DNA from: Stackebrandtia endophytica
GTDB taxonomy: Bacteria; Actinomycetota; Actinomycetes; Mycobacteriales; Micromonosporaceae
Reading direction: 5' to 3'
DNA: 64,000 nucleotides
NCBI RefSeq assembly: GCF_006716355.1
Contig: NZ_VFOW01000001.1
Span: 3,658,001-3,722,000 of the forward strand
The notes beneath the pieces are model-generated. The model made no database searches and was not told where the DNA came from. It saw only the letters and a program-made list of their open reading frames with translations. This document shows positions 3,902 through 13,939 of this stretch, piece by piece. A program made the position numbers and the translations under genes. Positions within the stretch are counted from its first letter, which is position 1, and the number at the start of each line of letters is the position of its first letter.

Positions 3902-4771
3902 GTGTGAGGAGTCGGGGGCTTCCCAGCCGGGCGGGTTGACGAGATACCGCAGGGCGTCGCGAAGTCGGCCGGTGCCGCGCATGTCACGCCACAACGCCGC
4001 GTACTCGCCGAAGGCGACTCGCACGGGATTGTAGGTGTCGATGTTCCTGGTCAGTCCATAACGGACTCGTTCGCCTTCGGGTTCGAAGGTGCCGAAGAGG
4101 CGGTCCCAGATGATCAGGATGCCGCCGTAATTGCGGTCGAGGTACCGGTCGTTCGACCCGTGGTGCACGCGGTGATGAGACGGCGTGTTCATGACCCACT
4201 CGATGGGCCGGGGCAGTCGGTCGACCCGCTCGGTGTGCAGGAAGAACTGATAGATGAGGCTGATCGACTGTTGCAGGAAGATCATCCAGGGCGGGAACCC
4301 GATCAGTGCCAACGGAAGCCAGAACGGCAACGTGGTCATGGGTGTCCAGCTTTGCCGCAGCGCGGTGGTGAAGTTGTAGTACTGGCTGGAGTGGTGAACG
4401 ACGTGGCTCGCCCACAGGACCCGCATCCGGTGATGTCCACGGTGGAACCAGTAATACGCCAGGTCGTCGGCGATGAACAGGCCGATGAACACTGTCGCGA
4501 TCAGCCACGGGTTCGCCGCGATCGTCTCGTTGGTGAACACGTCCAGATTGAACGGGGCCAGGTAGACGTATGCCGCGGCGTACACCGCGATGCTGACGAA
4601 CTTCCAGGGGAATCCGACGACCTGGGAGCCGGCGCCCATCGTCAGCGAGGTCGCCGCGTCCTTCAGCTCGTATCCACGTTCATCGTCGTCGGGCGCGAAG
4701 CGGAACGATGCCGCCTCGACGAGGACGAACAGGACGAACGCGGGGATCGCGTAGATGATCGCGTTGACCAT
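3887..4771 (-). CDS. Sterol desaturase / fatty acid hydroxylase superfamily membrane protein
   Basis: A 294-residue integral membrane protein with the histidine clusters of the fatty acid hydroxylase superfamily: HRGHH and HVVHHSSQ in the middle and HHRVHH further on, which ligate a di-iron centre. Several hydrophobic helices precede and separate them. Family members oxidise lipids (sterol C5 desaturation, alkylglycerol cleavage, carotenoid hydroxylation); the substrate here is unknown. I place the start at MVNAIIY because the frame upstream codes for arginine-rich, non-membrane sequence and a GGGAAG lies just before this ATG. A cluster of 16-bp repeats lies 124-207 bases upstream of the start and may control it. 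The 3' end overlaps the convergent asnB-like gene. Confidence 0.85.
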   Translation of the reverse strand: MVNAIIYAIPAFVLFVLVEAASFRFAPDDDERGYELKDAATSLTMGAGSQVVGFPWKFVSIAVYAAAYVYLAPFNLDVFTNETIAANPWLIATVFIGLFIADDLAYYWFHRGHHRMRVLWASHVVHHSSQYYNFTTALRQSWTPMTTLPFWLPLALIGFPPWMIFLQQSISLIYQFFLHTERVDRLPRPIEWVMNTPSHHRVHHGSNDRYLDRNYGGILIIWDRLFGTFEPEGERVRYGLTRNIDTYNPVRVAFGEYAALWRDMRGTGRLRDALRYLVNPPGWEAPDSSHSRRS

Positions 4772-4894
4772 GGTCTTCCCATCACATCGGGTGGGCGCGT
4801 CTCGGCGGTGTGGAAGGGGCACCGCATCGACACCGTGAAGGCGGGGGAAACCGAGCCGCGCGACGTCTGTCGAGGCACCGGTCCGGTGGCCTCG

Positions 4895-4978
4895 GGGGCT
4901 TCGAAGCACAGTGTTCTAGAAACACAGCGCTCTGGGTGCACGGTGTTCTGGAAACACGGTGTTCTCGAAGCACAGTGT
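4895..4978. repeat. Array of about five 16-bp dyad-like repeats
   Basis: Units begin at 4895, 4911, 4927, 4943 and 4959, exactly 16 bases apart, with another GTGT at 4975. Consensus is GTGTTCTnGAArCACr; the units at 4911, 4943 and 4959 are the best matches, those at 4895 and 4927 are degenerate. Each good unit has partial dyad symmetry (GTGTT...AACAC). The array lies between the lipoprotein stop and the start of the minus-strand desaturase, the expected place for an operator array. The protein that binds it is unknown. Confidence 0.7.
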
Positions 4979-5031
4979 CGTCGCGCGGCCGTGGGGTGTC
5001 AAGACCCCGAGCGTGCAGTCGAGGACGGCCG

Positions 5032-5655
5032 TCAGCTGGGGAGCCTCGCGAACACCTCCGGGAGGACCGCCGATCGCAGCTCCCGCACATCGGTGGTCCG
5101 CCCGTCGTCGGTTCCGGCGACCTCGAATTCCAGCACCAGTGCGGCTCCGGGTATCGCGAACGCCACGACGGCGGCGTTGCCGCTCGCCGCGCTGCAGTAC
5201 TGCCCGCCGGAGTCGTCGACGTCGTTGAACTTGACCGGGCCCGGGTTGAACGACGTGTCGTCCTCGTCGGTGGTCGTCCAGTACATGAGGCAGGCGGTCG
5301 CCTCGTGGTCCTCCTCGGAGGCGGCCGTTCGATACCGTCGCACATCGGTGGCGTCGAACGGGTGGACGCGCAGCATCCCGGCGGCGTAATTGAGGGTTCC
5401 GTCGCCCCGCAGCGTGAGGCAGTATTCCTGGCCGCCGTCGGGTACGTCGTCGTAGGCGTCGGTGAATCCGGTGGCGTAACTCTCCACACCGGACCGGATC
5501 GTGTCACACAACCGGTCGAGTAGTCCCGAGTCGACCTCGGCGACGACGACGGTCGTGATCGTCGGGTCGGAGGCGGGAGCATCGCCGGTGCAACCGGCGA
5601 CCGTCACGGCGGCAACCGCGATGACTCCGACGGTCTTGACGAGGTCGGTCCGCAT
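5032..5655 (-). CDS. Putative secreted lipoprotein, unknown function
   Basis: A 207-residue protein starting MRTDLVKTVGVIAVAAVTVAGC: two charged residues, a hydrophobic stretch and the lipobox VAGC, so it should be lipid-anchored outside the membrane. The rest has conserved-looking cysteines (LCDTI, EYCLTL, ACLMYW, QYCSAA) that could form two disulfides. It resembles small actinobacterial lipoproteins of the DUF3558 kind, but I would not commit to that family. Longer starts upstream are rejected because they bury the signal sequence. GCGGGG precedes the chosen ATG. The gene lies upstream of the 16-bp repeat array and the desaturase on the same strand, but 260 bases separate them. Confidence 0.75.
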   Translation of the reverse strand: MRTDLVKTVGVIAVAAVTVAGCTGDAPASDPTITTVVVAEVDSGLLDRLCDTIRSGVESYATGFTDAYDDVPDGGQEYCLTLRGDGTLNYAAGMLRVHPFDATDVRRYRTAASEEDHEATACLMYWTTTDEDDTSFNPGPVKFNDVDDSGGQYCSAASGNAAVVAFAIPGAALVLEFEVAGTDDGRTTDVRELRSAVLPEVFARLPS

Positions 5656-6124
5656 CCAACCCCGCCCGTGGTGATCGCCGAATCGTTTGAACGATGTGGA
5701 AGACGGTCGGTGGCGCGATGCGGAGGCCCGACTCGGTACTAACATCCGAGTGTCCCGATGCCGCCGTGAACCGTGTTTCTCCCGTTCCTGTGCCATGACA
5801 CTCCCCAAGCGACTGGGCATCGTGAGCTGTTCATCGCAGGATACGGCCCATCGTCAAATGATGACAGTCGATGTCTGTCCGGGGTCTCGAGCCTCAGTGG
5901 ACGCTGATGTCCGGTTCGCTATGGAGTAGCCGGTCGTCGTGATCGTGGGATTCGGCGATGACCGTGACGCTGCGGAACTCGCCGGAACCGGTCGCCGGTT
6001 CCGGGTGATCGCACCGACGACCGATCCGCACCGGGCGTGTAGATCCTTCATGGAGTCACCTGGCAGCCTGGGCTGCGTATCCGAGTGGTATCAGACCGCT
6101 CGGTCACCCGAATGGAGGTTTGGC
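5656..6124. other. Intergenic stretch with a perfect 10-bp hairpin
   Basis: About 470 bases between a minus-strand lipoprotein and a plus-strand mini-protein gene. The clear element is a perfect inverted repeat, CCGGAACCGG at 5982-5991 and CCGGTTCCGG at 5995-6004 with a 3-base loop and no T-run, more like an operator or RNA hairpin than a terminator. No convincing gene was seen. Confidence 0.5.
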
Positions 6125-6331
6125 GTGAAGCCTTTCGCTCTTCTCGTGAGATTCGGCGACGTGATGCTGTCCACAGTCGCCCCGCAGAACTCGGCTTCGG
6201 CCGCGTGTCCAACATCGAGTTGGTATGAGTACCAGTGTGTTCAGGGACGGCGTCGGTTGCGTCGCAAGTGCACCAACCATCCGACCTGCACCACCACCTG
6301 TACGTCGTGGACCTTCTACAGCATGTGCTGA
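6125..6331 (+). CDS. Cys-rich mini-protein with amphipathic leader, copy 1
   Basis: A 68-residue product read from a GTG at 6125, preceded by a good GGAGG at 6114-6118. The N-terminus (LLVRFGDVMLSTVAPQNSASA) matches the leader of the two mini-proteins at 9191 and 9577 in the pattern R-[LF]-[AG]-D-x-[VM]-L and ends in the same A-x-A motif. The C-terminal part carries six cysteines (C28, C38, C49, C55, C59, C68), the last being the final residue. The leader has no long hydrophobic core, so it is not a classical signal peptide. It looks like a leader plus a disulfide-rich or modified core peptide. Function unknown. No modification or export gene sits directly beside it. Confidence 0.7.
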   Translation: MKPFALLVRFGDVMLSTVAPQNSASAACPTSSWYEYQCVQGRRRLRRKCTNHPTCTTTCTSWTFYSMC

Positions 6332-6380
6332 TCCCCGCCGTACCCGTTTCACGGTTCGGCCCCGGCCCGGAGCCGAACCT

Positions 6381-6405
6381 CGCCCGCGCTCATTCGGCGC
6401 GGGCG
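6381..6405. terminator. GC hairpin between convergent genes
   Basis: Perfect 9-bp stem CGCCCGCGC / GCGCGGGCG with a 7-base loop, between the mini-protein stop (6331) and the convergent cysteine desulfhydrase stop (6443). The position suits a bidirectional terminator, although no T-run follows. Confidence 0.55.
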
Positions 6406-6442
6406 GCTTCCCCGACCAACTGACACCGCCGCGGCGGTAAGG

Positions 6443-7546
6443 CTATCGCTTCCCCGGCTCGTTCCAGGCGCCGGTGGCGAAGAACTCGGCGACCGTCCCG
6501 GTGTACGGAGCCAGGTCCAGGTTGTGGTCGGCGACCCAGTCGTCGTCGAAATAGGTGTGGGTATAGCGGTCACCCGAGTCACACAGCAACGTCACCACGC
6601 TGCCGGTGCGACCTGCTTCGCGCATCTCGGCGATCAACGCGAACGCCGCGTACAGGTTGGTTCCGGTGGAGCCTCCCAGCCGCCGACCCAGCAGAGTGGA
6701 GGCTTCTCGCAGCACCGCGATCGAAGCGGCATCGGGCACCTTCATCATGCGGTCGACGATGCTGGGGATGAACGAGGGCTCGACTCGCGGCCGCCCGATC
6801 CCCTCGATGCGGGAACCGGCACTCACGGTCGCGTCGGGGTCGTGATCACGCCACCCGGTGAAGAACGCCGAGTTTTCCGGGTCGACCACGCACAGTCGGG
6901 TGTCGTGTCGTTGATACCGCACATACCGCCCGATGGTGGCGCTGGTGCCGCCGGTGCCGGCCCCCACCACGATCCACTCCGGAACCGCATGACGTTCCCG
7001 TGACATCTGGTGGAATATCGACTCGGCGATGTTGTTGTTGCCTCGCCAGTCGGTGGCGCGTTCGGCGTAGGTGAACTGGTCCATGTAGTGACCGCGCTGG
7101 TCGGCGGCCAGCTCCCGTGCGGTGCTGACGACCTGGGAGGGATCGTCGACGAGGTGGCAGGTGCCGCCGTGGAATTCGATGAGCGCGATCTTCTCGGGGC
7201 TGGTGGTGGCGGGCATGACCGCCACGAACGGCAGCCCGAGCAGAGACGCGAAGTACGCCTCGCTCACCGCGGTGGAACCGGAGGAGGCCTCGATCACCGG
7301 TGTTCCCTCGGTGATCCAGCCGTTGCACAACGCGTAGAGGAACAGGGAACGGGCGAGACGATGCTTGAGGCTGCCGGTGGGATGTACCGATTCGTCCTTC
7401 AGATACAGATCGATGCCCCAGTCCGCGCACAACGGGAATCGGAGCAGGTGGGTGTCGGCGCTGCGGTTGGCGTCGGCTTCAACGATCCCGATGGCCTCAC
7501 TGACCCAGTCGCGGGTTCGGTCACAACATCGATCCAGGGTGTCCAC
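6443..7546 (-). CDS. cds1: PLP-dependent L-cysteine desulfhydrase (Cds1-like)
   Basis: A 367-residue fold-type II PLP enzyme. Lys61 in [11 protein letters not shown] is the expected Schiff-base lysine, [12 protein letters not shown] follows as the substrate loop, and [10 protein letters not shown] is the phosphate-binding loop. Length and sequence pattern fit the mycobacterial Cds1 group, which converts L-cysteine to pyruvate, ammonia and hydrogen sulfide, rather than CysK/CysM (about 310 residues). The Lrp/AsnC regulator gene at 7571 ends 24 bases upstream on the same strand, so the two are probably one operon and the regulator likely senses cysteine or another amino acid. A catabolic cysteine synthase homologue remains an alternative. 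Confidence 0.82.
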
Positions 7547-7570
7547 GCCGAAACTGTAACCGGCGGTCGG

Positions 7571-8017
7571 TCACGAGCGGTCCTGCGGCCGGGATTCCCA
7601 CTTGGTGGAGAGCGCGATGGTGGTGCGGGTCCCACCGACACCGGGCAGCCGACTCAGCCTGGTCACGAGGTACTCGAGTTCGGCCATGGTGCCGACGCGA
7701 ACCTTCAACAGGTACGACTCCTCGCCCGCCATGAAATAGCAGGACTCCACCTCGGTGATCTCTCGGATCGCATCGGCGACGTCGGCGTATTCACTGCCGG
7801 CGATGGTGACGATTCCGATCAGGGCGGTGATGCCCAAACCGATCGCCTCGGAGTTGATTTCGGCGCGATATCCGGTGATCACCTCGTTGCGTTCCAGCTT
7901 TGCCACCCGCTCCTGAACGGACGGGGAAGTCAGCCCGACCTGCCGTGCGAGTTCGGCGTATGACATGCGGGCCTGGGTCTGAAGCAGCTGTACGATGCGC
8001 CGGTCGATGTCGTCCAT
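7571..8017 (-). CDS. Lrp/AsnC family transcriptional regulator
   Basis: A 148-residue protein with the standard Lrp layout: N-terminal helix-turn-helix (residues about 3-50, DIDRRIVQLLQTQARMSYAELARQVGLTSPSVQERVAKLE), a linker, and a RAM ligand-binding/oligomerisation domain (residues about 65-140, with a GEESYLLKVRV core). It precedes the cysteine desulfhydrase gene by 24 bases and probably controls that operon in response to an amino acid. By analogy with known Lrp/desulfhydrase pairs the ligand may be cysteine; that is inference. A large inverted repeat lies 46-98 bases upstream of its start, shared with the divergent bldC gene. Confidence 0.88.
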   Translation of the reverse strand: MDDIDRRIVQLLQTQARMSYAELARQVGLTSPSVQERVAKLERNEVITGYRAEINSEAIGLGITALIGIVTIAGSEYADVADAIREITEVESCYFMAGEESYLLKVRVGTMAELEYLVTRLSRLPGVGGTRTTIALSTKWESRPQDRS

Positions 8018-8062
8018 CCGGCGACTCTAACCTGACCAAAAGATGTCGATGATCACCTGGCA

Positions 8063-8115
8063 GAATGCCCTGATTGGTGCTGTAATGGGGTCATACGCGC
8101 CCAACCAGGGCATTC
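8063..8115. repeat. Long inverted repeat between lrp and bldC
   Basis: GAATGCCCTGATTGG at 8063-8077 pairs with CCAACCAGGGCATTC at 8101-8115, with 14 of 15 positions complementary and a 23-base spacer. It lies between the divergent lrp (start 8017) and bldC (start 8145) genes, so it may be a double operator for Lrp or BldC, or a hairpin in the bldC leader. Confidence 0.75.
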
Positions 8116-8144
8116 AGCACGGTTTCTTAAGGGGTGCTCGGCCA

Positions 8145-8351
8145 ATGGAAAACGATCGGCTTTTGACTCCCGGTGAGGTCGCCGCGCTGTTTCGCGTCGA
8201 CCCGAAAACCGTGACCCGTTGGGCCGCGTCAGGGCGGATCGGCAGCATTCGCACGCCAGGTGGTCATCGCCGATTCCGTGAGTCCGAGGTTCGCGCGTTG
8301 CTTCAGGGAGAACTGGGCGACGCGTCACCACTGGAACAAGAACAAGAATAG
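8145..8351 (+). CDS. bldC: BldC family MerR-like developmental regulator
   Basis: A 68-residue protein consisting almost entirely of a MerR-type winged helix-turn-helix: LLTPGEVAALFRVDPKTVTRWAASGRIGSIRTPGGHRRFRESEVRALL. Length and sequence closely fit Streptomyces BldC, a small DNA-binding protein that holds back or times sporulation genes and binds direct repeats cooperatively. I chose the ATG at 8145 because upstream residues in the longer frame have no BldC similarity and AAGGGG lies upstream of it. It is divergent from the lrp-cds1 operon, with a long inverted repeat between them. Its presence suggests a differentiating or mycelial actinomycete, though BldC also occurs in non-sporulating relatives. 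Confidence 0.93.
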   Translation: MENDRLLTPGEVAALFRVDPKTVTRWAASGRIGSIRTPGGHRRFRESEVRALLQGELGDASPLEQEQE

Positions 8352-8361
8352 ATAACCTGGT

Positions 8362-9009
8362 TCACACCGGTTCACTGCGGGTACGGTCGGCGAAACCACC
8401 GCCCAATTCACCACGCCACCGCGTATACAGCGAGTGCCGAACATCCAGGGCGTCCAGGATCCGGCCCGCGAGGAAATCCACCAGTTGTTGCAGCTGCGTC
8501 GCGCCCGCGTAGAAGCCGGGCGAGGCGGGCAGCACGACCGCGCCCGCGTCGTGCAGGGACAGCAGGTGCACCAGGTGCGATCGTGACACCGGGGTCTCCC
8601 GGGGTACGACGACCACCGGTCGGCGTTCCTTCAGATTGACGTCGGCGGCCCGTTGCAGCAGGTCCTTCGACAGACCCTGTGCGATACCCGCGCACGCGGC
8701 GGTGCTCGCCGGGACGACGACCATGCCGCGCACCGGGTAGGAACCGCTGGAGGGGCCGGCGGCGAGATCGCCGGCGGACCAGTACTCGATGTCGGCGTCG
8801 GAGAGGTCGCGGTCCAGCCAGGTCGCCAGGTCGTCCTTCCAGTGCGCGTCGCGAAACGCGTTACCGGTCTCGTCGAGGATGGTGAGCCGCGCGGCTCGGG
8901 ACACCACCAGATCGACTGCCTCACCCGCGTCGAGCAGCCCGGTCAACACCGCGCGCGCGTACGGCGTGCCGGAGGCACCGGATACACCCACCACCCAAGG
9001 ACGTCGCAT
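8362..9009 (-). CDS. ubiX: UbiX-family flavin prenyltransferase
   Basis: A 215-residue flavoprotein of the UbiX/Pad1 group with GVSGASGTPYA at residues 8-18 for FMN binding and the later segments VVPASTAACAGIAQGLS and VVVPRETPVSRSHL. It prenylates FMN to make the prenyl-FMN cofactor of UbiD decarboxylases. A ubiD gene and a ubiA-like prenyltransferase gene lie just downstream of it on the opposite strand, a set that serves menaquinone synthesis in actinomycetes (MqnM role in the futalosine route). The stop lies 10 bases from the convergent bldC stop. UbiX shares its fold with the LanD/EpiD peptidyl-cysteine decarboxylases, but the ubiD context favours the UbiX role. Confidence 0.88.
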   Translation of the reverse strand: MRRPWVVGVSGASGTPYARAVLTGLLDAGEAVDLVVSRAARLTILDETGNAFRDAHWKDDLATWLDRDLSDADIEYWSAGDLAAGPSSGSYPVRGMVVVPASTAACAGIAQGLSKDLLQRAADVNLKERRPVVVVPRETPVSRSHLVHLLSLHDAGAVVLPASPGFYAGATQLQQLVDFLAGRILDALDVRHSLYTRWRGELGGGFADRTRSEPV

Positions 9010-9056
9010 ACCTTCCAGGGTGCCTGATCCGGTAGTCGTCGATGGCGGTGGCGTCG

Positions 9057-9133
9057 CCCGCGGCAGCGACGCCCGGTGTGCAAGGTTTTGACAGTTCGGG
9101 GCTGGATCCGTTGTCTAGGTTGACTTCCGGTGT
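9057..9133 (+). repeat. 77-bp direct repeat, copy A (upstream element of the mini-protein gene at 9191)
   Basis: Identical over 77 bases to 9440-9516, 383 bases downstream. Each copy lies about 60 bases ahead of one of the two Cys-rich mini-protein genes, so it probably holds their promoter. TTGACA is at 9088-9093 and TAGGTT at 9116-9121; the 22-base gap between them is too long for a standard promoter, so which boxes are used is unclear. Confidence 0.85.
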
Positions 9134-9190
9134 ACCCGATGCCCCGGAACGTCCGGTGCCTGCTCTGGATGCGCCCAAGGAGATTCCCCC

Positions 9191-9388
9191 ATGAAGAAGA
9201 TCACACGGCTGGCGGATTCGGTGCTGGAGCGCTTGGTGAGGTCGTCGACGGCCTCGGCGAGCAAGGATTACAGCTGGACCGAGTGCAGGGTGACCGCGTA
9301 CTGCGCGATGAAGGGGGTCCGGGAGCGGTTCACCTGCATTCGGCGCGAGGGCATCCCCTGGTGCGCCAGCAAGGGCTGCAACTGCTGA
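9191..9388 (+). CDS. Cys-rich mini-protein with amphipathic leader, copy 2
   Basis: A 65-residue protein with ATG at 9191 and AAGGAGAT 8 bases upstream. The leader MKKITRLADSVLERLV is almost identical to that of the next gene and ends at a small-residue stretch with A-x-A (STASAS). The core holds six cysteines: C-x5-C-x10-C-x8-C-x4-C-x-C, the last at the C-terminus. The leader would form an amphipathic helix rather than a membrane-spanning signal. The gene and its upstream element form one unit of a tandem duplication. It is oriented away from ubiX and towards ubiD. Function unknown; it looks like a precursor peptide or a small secreted disulfide protein. Confidence 0.8.
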   Translation: MKKITRLADSVLERLVRSSTASASKDYSWTECRVTAYCAMKGVRERFTCIRREGIPWCASKGCNC

Positions 9389-9439
9389 GTCGGTCGTCCG
9401 GCGGATCCGTCACCCGATCGGCCCGTTCCACGCACGGAA

Positions 9440-9516
9440 CCCGCGGCAGCGACGCCCGGTGTGCAAGGTTTTGACAGTTCGGGGCTGGATCCGTTGTCTA
9501 GGTTGACTTCCGGTGT
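9440..9516 (+). repeat. 77-bp direct repeat, copy B (upstream element of the mini-protein gene at 9577)
   Basis: Identical to 9057-9133. The sequence outside the 77 bases and within the coding regions has diverged far more, so this block is either the recent part of the duplication or is under strong constraint. Confidence 0.85.
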
Positions 9517-9576
9517 GCCTGGACGCCCCCGGAGCGTCCGGTGAATGTTCCGAGCACGCCCGAAAGGAGTCCACGG

Positions 9577-9780
9577 ATGAAGAAGATCACACGACTGGCC
9601 GACTCGGTTCTGGAACGCCTGGTTTCCTCGGCGAAGGCATCGGCGGGAATGCAGACGACCGCCTGGACCGAATGCCGCTTCAACGTTTTCTGCGCCGTGA
9701 CCGGTCGCCGGGAGAAGATGTCCTGCCGGGTGGCGGGAAGCAACGTGGTGGTCTGCGACAGCATCGGCTGCGGTTGCTGA
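9577..9780 (+). CDS. Cys-rich mini-protein with amphipathic leader, copy 3
   Basis: A 67-residue paralogue of the product at 9191. The first 16 residues are the same; the core has diverged to TECRFNVFCAVTGRRE and so on, but keeps six cysteines in the spacing C-x5-C-x10-C-x9-C-x4-C-x-C, again ending in cysteine. GAAAGGAG stands about 8 bases before the ATG. An 11-bp stem hairpin follows the stop. A conserved leader with a divergent core at fixed cysteine spacing is typical of precursor-peptide families and of toxin or defensin families; which applies cannot be told from sequence alone. Confidence 0.82.
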   Translation: MKKITRLADSVLERLVSSAKASAGMQTTAWTECRFNVFCAVTGRREKMSCRVAGSNVVVCDSIGCGC

Positions 9781-9796
9781 TTCACAGCGCCCCATC

Positions 9797-9840
9797 GGTT
9801 CCGGCCGGGCGGCGGGTGTCCTCGCCACTCGGCCGGAACC
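9797..9840 (+). terminator. Hairpin after the third mini-protein gene
   Basis: GGTTCCGGCCG (9797-9807) pairs perfectly with CGGCCGGAACC (9830-9840) across a 22-base loop, starting 17 bases after the stop codon. There is no clear T-run. Confidence 0.6.
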
Positions 9841-9925
9841 GTCACCGTGCGCGTCGGCTGTGAGCCGGGCGCCCCGTTCGTACAGCCCGTGGCGGCGCCG
9901 ATCGGCCGTCGGGTTCAATGAACGG

Positions 9926-11386
9926 GTGTCTGCTGCGAAATTTCCCTACGCTGACCTCGGCGAGTTCATCTCCGCCCTCGAACGAGACGGCGACCTGAAG
10001 CGGATCTCCGCCCCGGTCGACCCCACCTTGGAACTGTCCGAAATCACCCAGCGGGTGGTGCGGGAGAACGGCCCCGCCCTGCTGTTCGAAAACCCCACCC
10101 GCGGTGACATGCCGGTGGCGATCAACCTGTTCGGCACCCCGGAACGCACCGCCAAGGCGTTGGGGGCGGCGAAACTGGACGACATCGGTGCCCGCATCGG
10201 TGAACTGGTGAAACTGGAACTTCCGATCGGGTTCGCCGGGATCCGCGAGGGTCTGGGCAAGCTGATGCAGCTGAAGTCCGTCCCGCCGAAGAAGGTGAAG
10301 TCCGCGCCCTGCCAAGAGGTCGTCTACCGGGGTGACAAGGTGGATTTGAACCGGTTGCCGGGTCTCCAGACCTGGCCCGGCGACGGCGGCATCTTCCACA
10401 ACTTCGGGTTGACTCACACCAAGCACCCCGAGACCGGTAAGCGCAACCTGGGGTTGTACCGGTTGCAGCAGCACGACAGCCGCACCCTGGGCATGCACTG
10501 GCAGATCCACAAGGATTCGACGGCCCACCACGCCGTCGCCGAACGGCGTGGCGAGCGACTGCCGGTGGCGATCGCGATCGGTGCCGATCCGGTGGTGGCC
10601 TACTCCGCCGGTGCGCCGTTGCCCGCCGAGATCGACGAGTACCTGTTCGCCGGGTTCCTGCGCGGCGAGCGCGTCGAGATGGTCGACTGCCTGACGGTTC
10701 CGCTTCAGGTCCCGGCCAACGCGCAGATCATCCTGGAGGGGTACATCGAACCGGGTGAGCGTAAGCCCGAGGGCCCGTTCGGTGACCACACCGGTTTCTA
10801 CACGCCGGTCGAACCGTTCCCGGTGATGCACGTGGAGTGCATGACGACCCGCAAGAACCCGATCTACCACTCCATCGTGACGTCCAAGCCGCCGCAGGAG
10901 GACTACGGTCTGGGCAAGGCGACCGAGCGCATCTTCCTGCCGTTGCTGAAGCTGTTGATCCCCGACATCGTGGACTACAACATGCCGGAGCCGGGTGTCT
11001 TCCACAACTGCCTGATCGTGTCGATCGCCAAGCGCTACCCCAAGCATGCTCAGAAGGTGATGAGCGCGGTGTGGGGTGCCCACATGCTGGGGATGGCGAA
11101 ACTGCTGGTCATCGTCGACGAGGACTGCGACGTCCACGACCTGAACGAGGTCGCCTGGCGTGCGTTGGGCAATGTGGACTACAGCCACGACCTGGTGGTC
11201 AACTCCGGCCCGGTCGATCACCTGGATCACGCCTCGTACCAACAGTTCTGGGGCGGCAAGGCCGGTATCGACGCCACCCGGAAACTGCCCGGTGAGGGCT
11301 ACACCCGAGGCTGGCCGGACGAGGCGACCATGACCGCGGCGGTGAAGGCCACAGTGGATTCGCGCTGGCGGGAGTACGGATTGTGA
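9926..11386 (+). CDS. ubiD: UbiD-family decarboxylase (menaquinone pathway)
   Basis: A 486-residue prenyl-FMN-dependent decarboxylase. The segment EPGERKPEGPFGDHTGFYTP carries the conserved active-site region, and the C-terminal part (KRYPKHAQKVMSAVWG, ALGNVDYSHDLVVNSGPVDHLDHAS) is typical of the family. I chose the GTG at 9926 because it lies 6 bases after a TTCAAT -10-like box with no Shine-Dalgarno, the leaderless pattern seen at several genes here, and because the residues upstream look non-coding. Beside ubiX and the ubiA-like gene it most likely removes the carboxyl group from a prenylated naphthoate in futalosine-route menaquinone synthesis (MqnL role). The stop overlaps the next start by 4 bases. 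Confidence 0.88.
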   Translation: MSAAKFPYADLGEFISALERDGDLKRISAPVDPTLELSEITQRVVRENGPALLFENPTRGDMPVAINLFGTPERTAKALGAAKLDDIGARIGELVKLELPIGFAGIREGLGKLMQLKSVPPKKVKSAPCQEVVYRGDKVDLNRLPGLQTWPGDGGIFHNFGLTHTKHPETGKRNLGLYRLQQHDSRTLGMHWQIHKDSTAHHAVAERRGERLPVAIAIGADPVVAYSAGAPLPAEIDEYLFAGFLRGERVEMVDCLTVPLQVPANAQIILEGYIEPGERKPEGPFGDHTGFYTPVEPFPVMHVECMTTRKNPIYHSIVTSKPPQEDYGLGKATERIFLPLLKLLIPDIVDYNMPEPGVFHNCLIVSIAKRYPKHAQKVMSAVWGAHMLGMAKLLVIVDEDCDVHDLNEVAWRALGNVDYSHDLVVNSGPVDHLDHASYQQFWGGKAGIDATRKLPGEGYTRGWPDEATMTAAVKATVDSRWREYGL

Positions 11387-12363: not shown

Positions 12364-12831
12364 TTAGAACTCTTCTTCGAATCCGAATCCGAGCCCGTCG
12401 CAGCTGGCATCGATGCCCTCGGAGGCCGCTTCGAAGGCTTCCGAGTCGGCGTCGCTCAGCGCTTCGCCGCCCTTCTCGTAGTAGCCGGGTCCGAGGGTTC
12501 CCCACTCGACGACCAGGGCGCCCAGGTCGGTGTCCTCGAAGTCGCCGCCGTTGTCGACCATCCAGATCGCCAGGGTGTTGAACTGGTCGTTCGGCATCTC
12601 ACCCAGCCGCATCTCGGGGTCCGGGGCCAGGCCCCACACTATGTCGCCGAGATCATCACAGCCCAGGGACGCGACCGCTTCCTCGGTCTGCGGTTCGGTC
12701 TGGGTTTCCTGGGTGTTGTCGCTGTTGCTGCTGCCGGCGTCGTCGGTCGTACCACCGCAGGCGGCCAGTCCGAAAGCAAGCAGGCCGGCACCGGCGGCCA
12801 CGGCGAAACCGCGACGGAAGTGAAGTTTCAT
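12364..12831 (-). CDS. Small acidic lipoprotein, paralogue of the one at 13496
   Basis: A 155-residue protein with signal MKLHFRRGFAVAAGAGLLAFGLAAC and lipobox LAAC, then a Ser/Thr/Gln/Glu-rich linker (about residues 26-50) and an acidic globular part. It shares the motif W-M-x-D-N-G-G-[DN]-F-x-D-x-D-L-G (IWMVDNGGDFEDTDLG) with the lipoprotein at 13496, and both have one cysteine at the start and one near the end of the mature domain. Function unknown; probably anchored to the outer face of the membrane. Start chosen at MKLHF; MNPMKLHF is also possible. A good TTGACA promoter lies upstream. Confidence 0.78.
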   Translation of the reverse strand: MKLHFRRGFAVAAGAGLLAFGLAACGGTTDDAGSSNSDNTQETQTEPQTEEAVASLGCDDLGDIVWGLAPDPEMRLGEMPNDQFNTLAIWMVDNGGDFEDTDLGALVVEWGTLGPGYYEKGGEALSDADSEAFEAASEGIDASCDGLGFGFEEEF

Positions 12832-12860
12832 GGGGTTCATTTCAGATTGGGGATGATGGA

Positions 12861-12889
12861 ACATTGAGGACATTAGCAAGACTTGTCAA
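12861..12889 (-). promoter_or_regulatory. Sigma-70-type promoter for the lipoprotein gene at 12831
   Basis: Reading the minus strand: a perfect -35 TTGACA (12889-12884), a 17-base spacer and a -10 CAATGT (12866-12861), ending 30 bases before the ATG. Just upstream is a small inverted repeat, ATCGGA/TCCGAT (12893-12911), that could be an operator. Confidence 0.6.
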
Positions 12890-13495: not shown

Positions 13496-13939
13496 CTAGC
13501 CCAAGACGGTGTCGCCGCACTTGGTCTGGATGACCTGGGCGTGGGCGTCGATCTCGGTGGAGGCGGTTTCCAGGTCCGCCTGCTTGGCCTCCAACTCGGC
13601 CATGGCGGCCTCGTCGGTGTAGTCGATGTCCTTGAACTCGTCGAGCATCTCGAAGAGTGGAATCGCCTTCTCGCCGAATCCCTTCACCGCTTCGCCGAGG
13701 TCGGCGTCGGAGAAGTTTCCGCCGTTGTCGGCCATCCACTGGAAGAACCCGCGGTAGTCGTCCATGTTGAAGTCGGCCGCGTCCATGTTGACTTCGGTGA
13801 GGTTGTGGTCCTTCGCGGCCGATTCCAGGTCGGAGCAGTCCAGGCTGCTGCCGCCCAGCAGGGAGCATCCCGAGAGGGCGGCGGCGAGCAGTCCGGCGGT
13901 CGCCACGGTGGAGACGGCACGGCGAATGGGGCGAATCAT
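13496..13939 (-). CDS. Small acidic lipoprotein with WMxDNGGxF motif
   Basis: A 147-residue protein: signal MIRPIRRAVSTVATAGLLAAALSGC with lipobox LSGC, a short linker, then an acidic helical domain with FFQWMADNGGNFSDADLGEAVKGFGEKA. This matches the lipoprotein at 12364 in motif, cysteine placement and length. The acidic stretches (DAADFNMDDY, DADLGE) could bind divalent cations, but no defined EF-hand is present. Function unknown. Its leader region carries a perfect long-range inverted repeat (13961-14034). Confidence 0.78.
   Translation of the reverse strand: MIRPIRRAVSTVATAGLLAAALSGCSLLGGSSLDCSDLESAAKDHNLTEVNMDAADFNMDDYRGFFQWMADNGGNFSDADLGEAVKGFGEKAIPLFEMLDEFKDIDYTDEAAMAELEAKQADLETASTEIDAHAQVIQTKCGDTVLG

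Follow-up and report, generated by a model that had tools for sequence, protein, structure and literature searches.

We analysed a 64,000-nucleotide stretch of the Stackebrandtia endophytica genome (hereafter the window) in which three short genes encode small cysteine-rich proteins. Judging from their sequences and those of many relatives, these genes probably specify precursors for a dedicated pathway of Sec-independent export and oxidative folding, in which a leader would guide export by an ABC exporter and be cleaved off at an A-x-A motif. We lean slightly towards a broader proposal, namely that this is a previously undescribed bacterial secretion pathway, with an amphipathic D-x2-L-x8-A-x-A export tag, a peptidase-free ABC exporter, and a signal peptidase and disulfide-forming pair of its own, and that one exporter clade has turned it into a genome-wide library served in trans, amounting to as many as some 60 diverse disulfide peptides in a cell. 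Such a library would be a bacterial counterpart of the conotoxin or plant nodule-specific cysteine-rich (NCR) repertoires, with some cores possibly resembling thrombospondin repeats.

The three genes lie on the forward strand at window positions 6125-6331 (P0001, GTG start), 9191-9388 (P0002, ATG start) and 9577-9780 (P0003, ATG start) and encode 68, 65 and 67 residues, as an earlier note made from the window sequence alone had described. A purine-rich ribosome-binding stretch can be recognized by eye 5′ of all three starts. Each protein carries the N-terminal pattern R-[LF]-[AG]-D-x-[VM]-L followed by A-x-A that the note had pointed out, within a leader of 23-26 residues that lacks a hydrophobic core and ends in ASA (6125-6202, 9191-9259 and 9577-9645, respectively). 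The cores that follow (6203-6328, 9260-9385 and 9646-9777) hold six cysteines each, one of them C-terminal.

That these proteins belong to a family beyond chance follows from the matches of P0003, used as a single query, to P0002 (expectation value E=2.3e-15) and to another copy 114 kb away (E=6e-8), behind which came a tail of weak matches in the same genome. With a nine-row profile (A2), 21 places were found at E<=10 in the one contig of 5.66 Mb that represents this genome, three of them in tandem near 1.687 Mb; P0001, itself a row of A2, matched it at E=1.1e-20. A 73-row profile (A7) recovered 20 of the 21 places at E<=0.001, losing the one at 2.076 Mb. The profile search for short genes with the same leader that the earlier note had proposed thus yields about 20 members in the genome of origin, and across 61 related genomes, this one included, A7 detected precursors in 21. 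Their numbers were 61 in genome G010, 36 in G029, 33 in G001, 20 in G000 and 14 in G003, the five many-precursor genomes, and between one and seven in each of the other 16. Two genomes with E of 0.004-0.009 under the first profile, G007 and G031, had no match at E<=0.001 under A7 and were scored as precursor-negative. Pfam and NCBIfam gave nothing above curated cut-offs for the three window proteins and nothing better than E=0.001 for the 73 members, the best matches (0.0012 and 0.0013) being to zinc-ribbon models, from one member in each library. A genome contig scan with P0003 alone as query confirmed no relative.

In the 73-row alignment both alanines of A-x-A are invariant and the aspartate is retained in at least 90% of rows. 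In a set of 49 leaders (A11) that we selected from 72 clean ones, the aspartate and both alanines are invariant and the leucine nearly so, which defines the register D-x2-L-x8-A-x-A; part of this invariance is due to selection, since the script searched for such leaders. The displayed rows are ungapped from the aspartate to A-x-A and divergent in the core, the pattern of short precursors of ribosomally synthesized and post-translationally modified peptides (RiPPs). When 79 leaders were scored for hydrophobicity, the best 10-residue Kyte-Doolittle mean had a median of 1.07 and exceeded 2.0 in a single leader, so that 78 of 79 lack the roughly 10-residue hydrophobic core of a Sec signal peptide, in agreement with the earlier note. 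The median helical moment was 0.73, versus 0.50 for shuffled leaders. A 23-position profile of the leader alone produced 138 matches (E<=0.01) when run on the five many-precursor genomes and none on five control genomes (G002, G004, G005, G007 and G011). We read 62 distinct proteins behind these matches, from 46 loci (30 returned by the leader search and 16 chosen by us from its list), and all 62, of which 51 fall outside the leader alignment, had a core with at least 8% cysteine and an even cysteine count.

Core properties were counted over 81 distinct members whose start was found by script and whose length was 45-95 residues, other rows, P0002 among them, being dropped. Cysteine number ranges from 4 to 12 and is even in 75 of the 81 (p=3e-16); a C-terminal cysteine occurs in 55, and one among the last three residues in 76. 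The rule of six cysteines ending in a cysteine, which the earlier note had drawn up, therefore describes the three window proteins but not the family. Cores contain 18% cysteine, 7.5% tyrosine and 3.2% tryptophan. Cysteine spacing, which the note had expected to be conserved among homologues, is not conserved between paralogs, but across six putative ortholog pairs (picked by similarity, with synteny tested for one) none of the 44 cysteine positions is lost. In these pairs the cores are more conserved than the leaders, the pooled nonsynonymous (dN) and synonymous (dS) rates, which are rough, being 0.18 and 0.67 for the core and 0.35 and 0.76 for the leader. The reverse holds for the tandem pair in the window, where short sequences give equally rough rates: its leaders differ at dN 0.10 and dS 0.65, its cores at dN 0.69 and dS 0.62, with all six cysteines retained. 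A constant leader register with differing paralog cores supports, at the level of sequence, the earlier interpretation of these genes as a precursor-peptide family. For the window products disulfides alone are implied, and toxin, RiPP in the strict sense and modified C-terminus are candidate labels. A search of A7 against the PDB returned eight weak matches (E 0.08-4.7), seven of which we take to be thrombospondin type-1 repeat proteins. A P0003 model built from the three window proteins, with a helix at residues 4-22 and three strands, was too poor for use (predicted local distance difference test score 57.5), and Foldseek with this low-confidence model found nothing at E<=0.001 and no thrombospondin-repeat protein among the 50 matches listed. 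We treat the thrombospondin similarity as a lead only.

In genomes with few precursors, the precursor gene usually adjoins others that encode a membrane protein of the MauE family, a TlpA/MauD-like thioredoxin, an ABC exporter and a protein of the S26 signal peptidase family. The neighbour families present at 10 or more of 41 loci were the exporter, TlpA, S26, MauE and a regulator (11 loci) that clusters with a protein identified as AfsR/SARP-type. Both MauE-like proteins scanned matched PF07291, and a CxC motif occurs in all 10 such proteins; CxxC is invariant in the 17 TlpA-like thioredoxins, and all 15 S26 proteins share a serine and a lysine at what are presumably the positions of the catalytic dyad. 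The exporter is about 605 residues long, and no peptidase domain was found in the two exporters scanned. No lanthionine synthetase, and no modifying enzyme beyond those of disulfide formation, is among the five families identified, those at 3-9 loci not having been identified. Two further neighbour families, of about 220 and 380 residues, are paired at 8-9 of the 41 loci, and from their size and pairing we would guess that they are two-component systems.

Scanning the 61 genomes for the exporter at E<=1e-110 split the scores into a group of at least 680 bits and one of at most 436 bits. The upper group comprised 43 exporters in 22 genomes, all of which we examined with their flanks. Within 5 kb of these 43 lay a precursor in 35 cases (E<=0.01, including a few weak matches), TlpA in 37, S26 in 38 and MauE in 24; for the 26 exporters outside the loci used to build the profiles the numbers were 18, 21, 21 and 13. 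Exporter and precursor occur together in 21 genomes, the exporter alone in one (G002), the precursor alone in none and neither in 39 (Fisher p=1.8e-15).

A separate draw of 198 genomes from the phylum contained the exporter in the genome of origin and in G083 only, the latter with precursor, MauE, TlpA, ABC exporter and S26 in this order and the precursor 1.3 kb from the exporter. Precursors were likewise detected in these two genomes, together with marginal matches in three genomes of one genus, whose sequences, once read, did not resemble those of members. Five of 80 listed loci carry the cognate exporter: those of Streptomyces echinatus, S. atratus and Nonomuraea are arranged like that of G083, an Actinomadura locus has MauE-TlpA-ABC, with neither precursor nor S26 found in the flank, and a Micromonosporaceae contig has TlpA-ABC-S26 before it is cut. 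In the other 75 (exporter at most 497 bits, or none at the cut-off) no precursor reached E<=0.01, and three of them contained an isolated partner match (S26 at 35 bits, TlpA at 33 and MauE at 77).

The genome of origin contains one exporter of this kind, with 836 bits at 805.6-807.4 kb and a runner-up at 401 bits. Its gene (805539-807452) belongs to a cluster on the minus strand with MauE (808041-808580; Pfam MauE, E=6.9e-24), TlpA (807455-807979; motif CSAC) and S26 (804621-805502, or 7622-8503 of locus L165; motifs GMSMSP and SWYIKR; Peptidase_S26, E=2.5e-13). The S26 protein has a long C-terminal tail rich in lysine and alanine, absent from a 146-residue relative at locus L076. No precursor was found within the 19.5 kb around this cluster, and the window genes, near 3.664-3.668 Mb, are about 2.85 Mb distant, so any service to them must be in trans. 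The earlier note had seen no lanthionine, thiazole or radical-SAM enzyme gene in the window and supposed that maturation, if any, would use something else; this one MauE-TlpA-ABC-S26 cluster is the likely source of the maturation proteins.

From features legible in the sequences (the family, its leader register and neighbourhood, the co-occurrence, the single distant cluster and the even number of cysteines) we infer the following route, in which recognition of the substrate, the order of steps, the cleavage site, disulfide formation and secretion are all predicted. The leader, a short amphipathic helix with the register D-x2-L-x8-A-x-A, would serve as an address tag for the peptidase-free ABC exporter, and the cluster-encoded, signal-peptidase-type S26 protease would cleave after A-x-A. 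A membrane-anchored TlpA/MauD-like thioredoxin (CxxC) would then form the disulfides of the released core and itself be kept oxidized by the MauE-family membrane protein (CxCFG). Most genomes that bear the system have one precursor or a few next to a machine, and in this lineage a single machine would handle precursors dispersed around the chromosome, about 14 to 61 in number. As to the biological role, antagonism of neighbours is a guess that we hold as somewhat less than an even bet.

An exporter tree was built from the 43 exporters, five more with adjoining partners and two outgroups. The exporters of G000, G001, G003, G010 and G002 and one of the two of G029 form one clade with support of 100/100. 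Of the seven exporters that G002 and the five many-precursor genomes have between them, this clade accounts for six, and the seventh, the second of G029, falls elsewhere. Most simply, given this shared clade, the many-precursor state would have arisen once among the sampled genomes.

Several observations weigh against this interpretation. MauE is near just 24 of the 43 exporters, and eight exporters, one each in G000, G002, G003, G010, G020, G024, G027 and G029, have no precursor within 5 kb; four of these genomes are many-precursor genomes. The parts are spread over several places in G010, G029 and G002, and MauE was not found in the stretches examined from the first two. The TlpA-like proteins match the Pfam redoxin models weakly (E=1.7e-4, below the curated cut-off). 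G002, of the same genus, has exporter, MauE, TlpA and S26 with no detectable precursor: a search at E<=10 gave a best value of 0.9, compared with 0.17 in G004, which has neither component. G002, with a genome of 3.4 Mb, has its exporter, MauE and TlpA genes, together with two for S26, distributed over two contigs (L173 and L174). Conversely, the three genomes of one genus in the phylum draw have marginal precursor matches at E of about 8e-4 and no exporter. Some members lack A-x-A, as in an array of seven precursors at locus L340. That array (4219-6170, minus strand; G001:C4:321218-323169) is a tandem of seven very short genes with eight cysteines per roughly 30 residues. Finally, the profiles were built partly from loci described afterwards, the A11 leaders were chosen by us, and kinship among the 61 genomes means that the Fisher p overstates their independence.

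The leader could instead be an unusual Sec or Tat signal peptide removed by the housekeeping signal peptidase, with the nearby exporter and S26 protein serving something else. Type I signal peptidase sites end in A-x-A, which the leader terminus resembles, and the S26 protein does match the signal peptidase family. However, 78 of 79 leaders have no 10-residue mean above 2.0, a near-invariant aspartate sits in mid-leader, and at E<=0.001 none of the 61 genomes has precursors and no cognate exporter, so that we regard this explanation as highly unlikely. Still less credible to us is that the proteins remain in the cytoplasm as metal-binding peptides of a metallothionein or zinc-ribbon-like kind: the high cysteine content and the weak zinc-ribbon matches (E 0.0012 and 0.0013) would suit it, but these came from just one of 73 members per library, 75 of 81 members have an even number of cysteines, as would suit pairing, and an exporter, together with a signal-peptidase-type protease and a redox pair of MauE/TlpA type, is encoded next door.

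The cores might also be modified further within the export and folding pathway, perhaps by a crosslink or a cofactor comparable to the one in the small subunit of methylamine dehydrogenase, which would make the product more than a simple disulfide-bonded peptide. The MauE- and MauD/TlpA-like partners and the tyrosine and tryptophan content of the cores (7.5% and 3.2%) are compatible with this, and the decRiPPter authors, in the accessible parts of their paper, suggest that clusters with mauE have a RiPP role (PMC7794033). Yet the five families present at 10 or more of the 41 loci are the exporter, TlpA, S26, the regulator and MauE (those at 3-9 loci were not identified), and at E<=0.1 no amine dehydrogenase model was matched by any of the 73 members. 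We consider such modification unlikely.

Parts of the proposed system have counterparts elsewhere. Prochlorosins combine one lanthionine synthetase with many scattered precursors, and the likeness extends to a conserved leader and diverse cores, whereas the partners here are an exporter, a protease and a redox pair, with no lanthionine synthetase among the five identified families. Maturation of the methylamine dehydrogenase small subunit uses MauE and MauD, and here too a MauE-family protein and a thioredoxin-like partner stand by a small cysteine-rich protein; unlike that case, exporter and S26 genes are added, and the Pfam and NCBIfam models of the MauA subunit match none of the 73 members at E<=0.1. 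Sublancin-type glycocins have dedicated thiol oxidoreductases and ABC export, so that exporter and disulfide-forming proteins likewise share one cluster. In contrast, the two exporters scanned here lack a peptidase domain, cleavage is assigned to a separate S26 protein, and the leader ends in A-x-A rather than in GG.

The nearest printed relatives are three mauE-containing candidate RiPP families of Streptomyces, one of them also with mauD, whose predicted precursors have at least eight cysteines according to the accessible parts of the decRiPPter paper (PMC7794033); we found none closer in the open-access literature as far as it was accessible. A mauE homolog also adjoins the precursor in our S. 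echinatus (L224) and S. atratus (L228) loci. However, the precursors of these two Streptomyces loci have six cysteines each, like the window genes, and the Nonomuraea precursor eight, so the Streptomyces and window genes fall short of that minimum. The published description, in those parts, gives no leader motif, no role for an exporter or S26 protein, no product and no scattered library (PMC7794033). Given their six cysteines, our Streptomyces precursors may or may not belong to the decRiPPter families. The proposed precursor library served in trans is, in our view, the newest part of the system.

If the proposal is true, very different disulfide-rich cores would need no more than a 23-residue tag to pass through a common exporter and folding pair. 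Dozens of natural cores joined to the same leader are already present in these genomes, which makes leader-directed export and folding of disulfide peptides directly testable. A pool of unannotated secreted peptides would then be implied for actinobacteria, none of the 73 members having a Pfam or NCBIfam match better than E=0.001.

Within the window, P0002 and P0003 are tandem paralogs with 55% identity, and P0001 is a remoter relative of both. The pair is located between a UbiX-like flavoprotein gene (8362-9009, minus strand; PF02441) and a UbiD-like decarboxylase gene (9860-11386, plus strand; PF01977), neighbours which we do not think are part of the system. G003, of the same genus, has a single ortholog of P0003 in the corresponding place, flanked by the same two genes. 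Upstream of the two tandem genes lie 80-nt repeats with 99% identity to each other (9057-9136 and 9440-9519, plus strand), which are probably promoter regions, and from both of which the region upstream of the G003 ortholog has clearly diverged. The repeats are far more alike than the synonymous sites of the pair (dS about 0.6), which suggests gene conversion or promoter copying. A crude k-mer ranking of 18 upstream regions from this genome gave no convincing shared promoter motif except the window's own repeat, and a plasmid collection searched with positions 8950-9960 gave no match. Farther along the window, at 12364-12879 and 13496-13939, two small proteins with no Pfam match are encoded by related DNA (repeat family D2), and the first of them has, by eye, a lipoprotein-like beginning.

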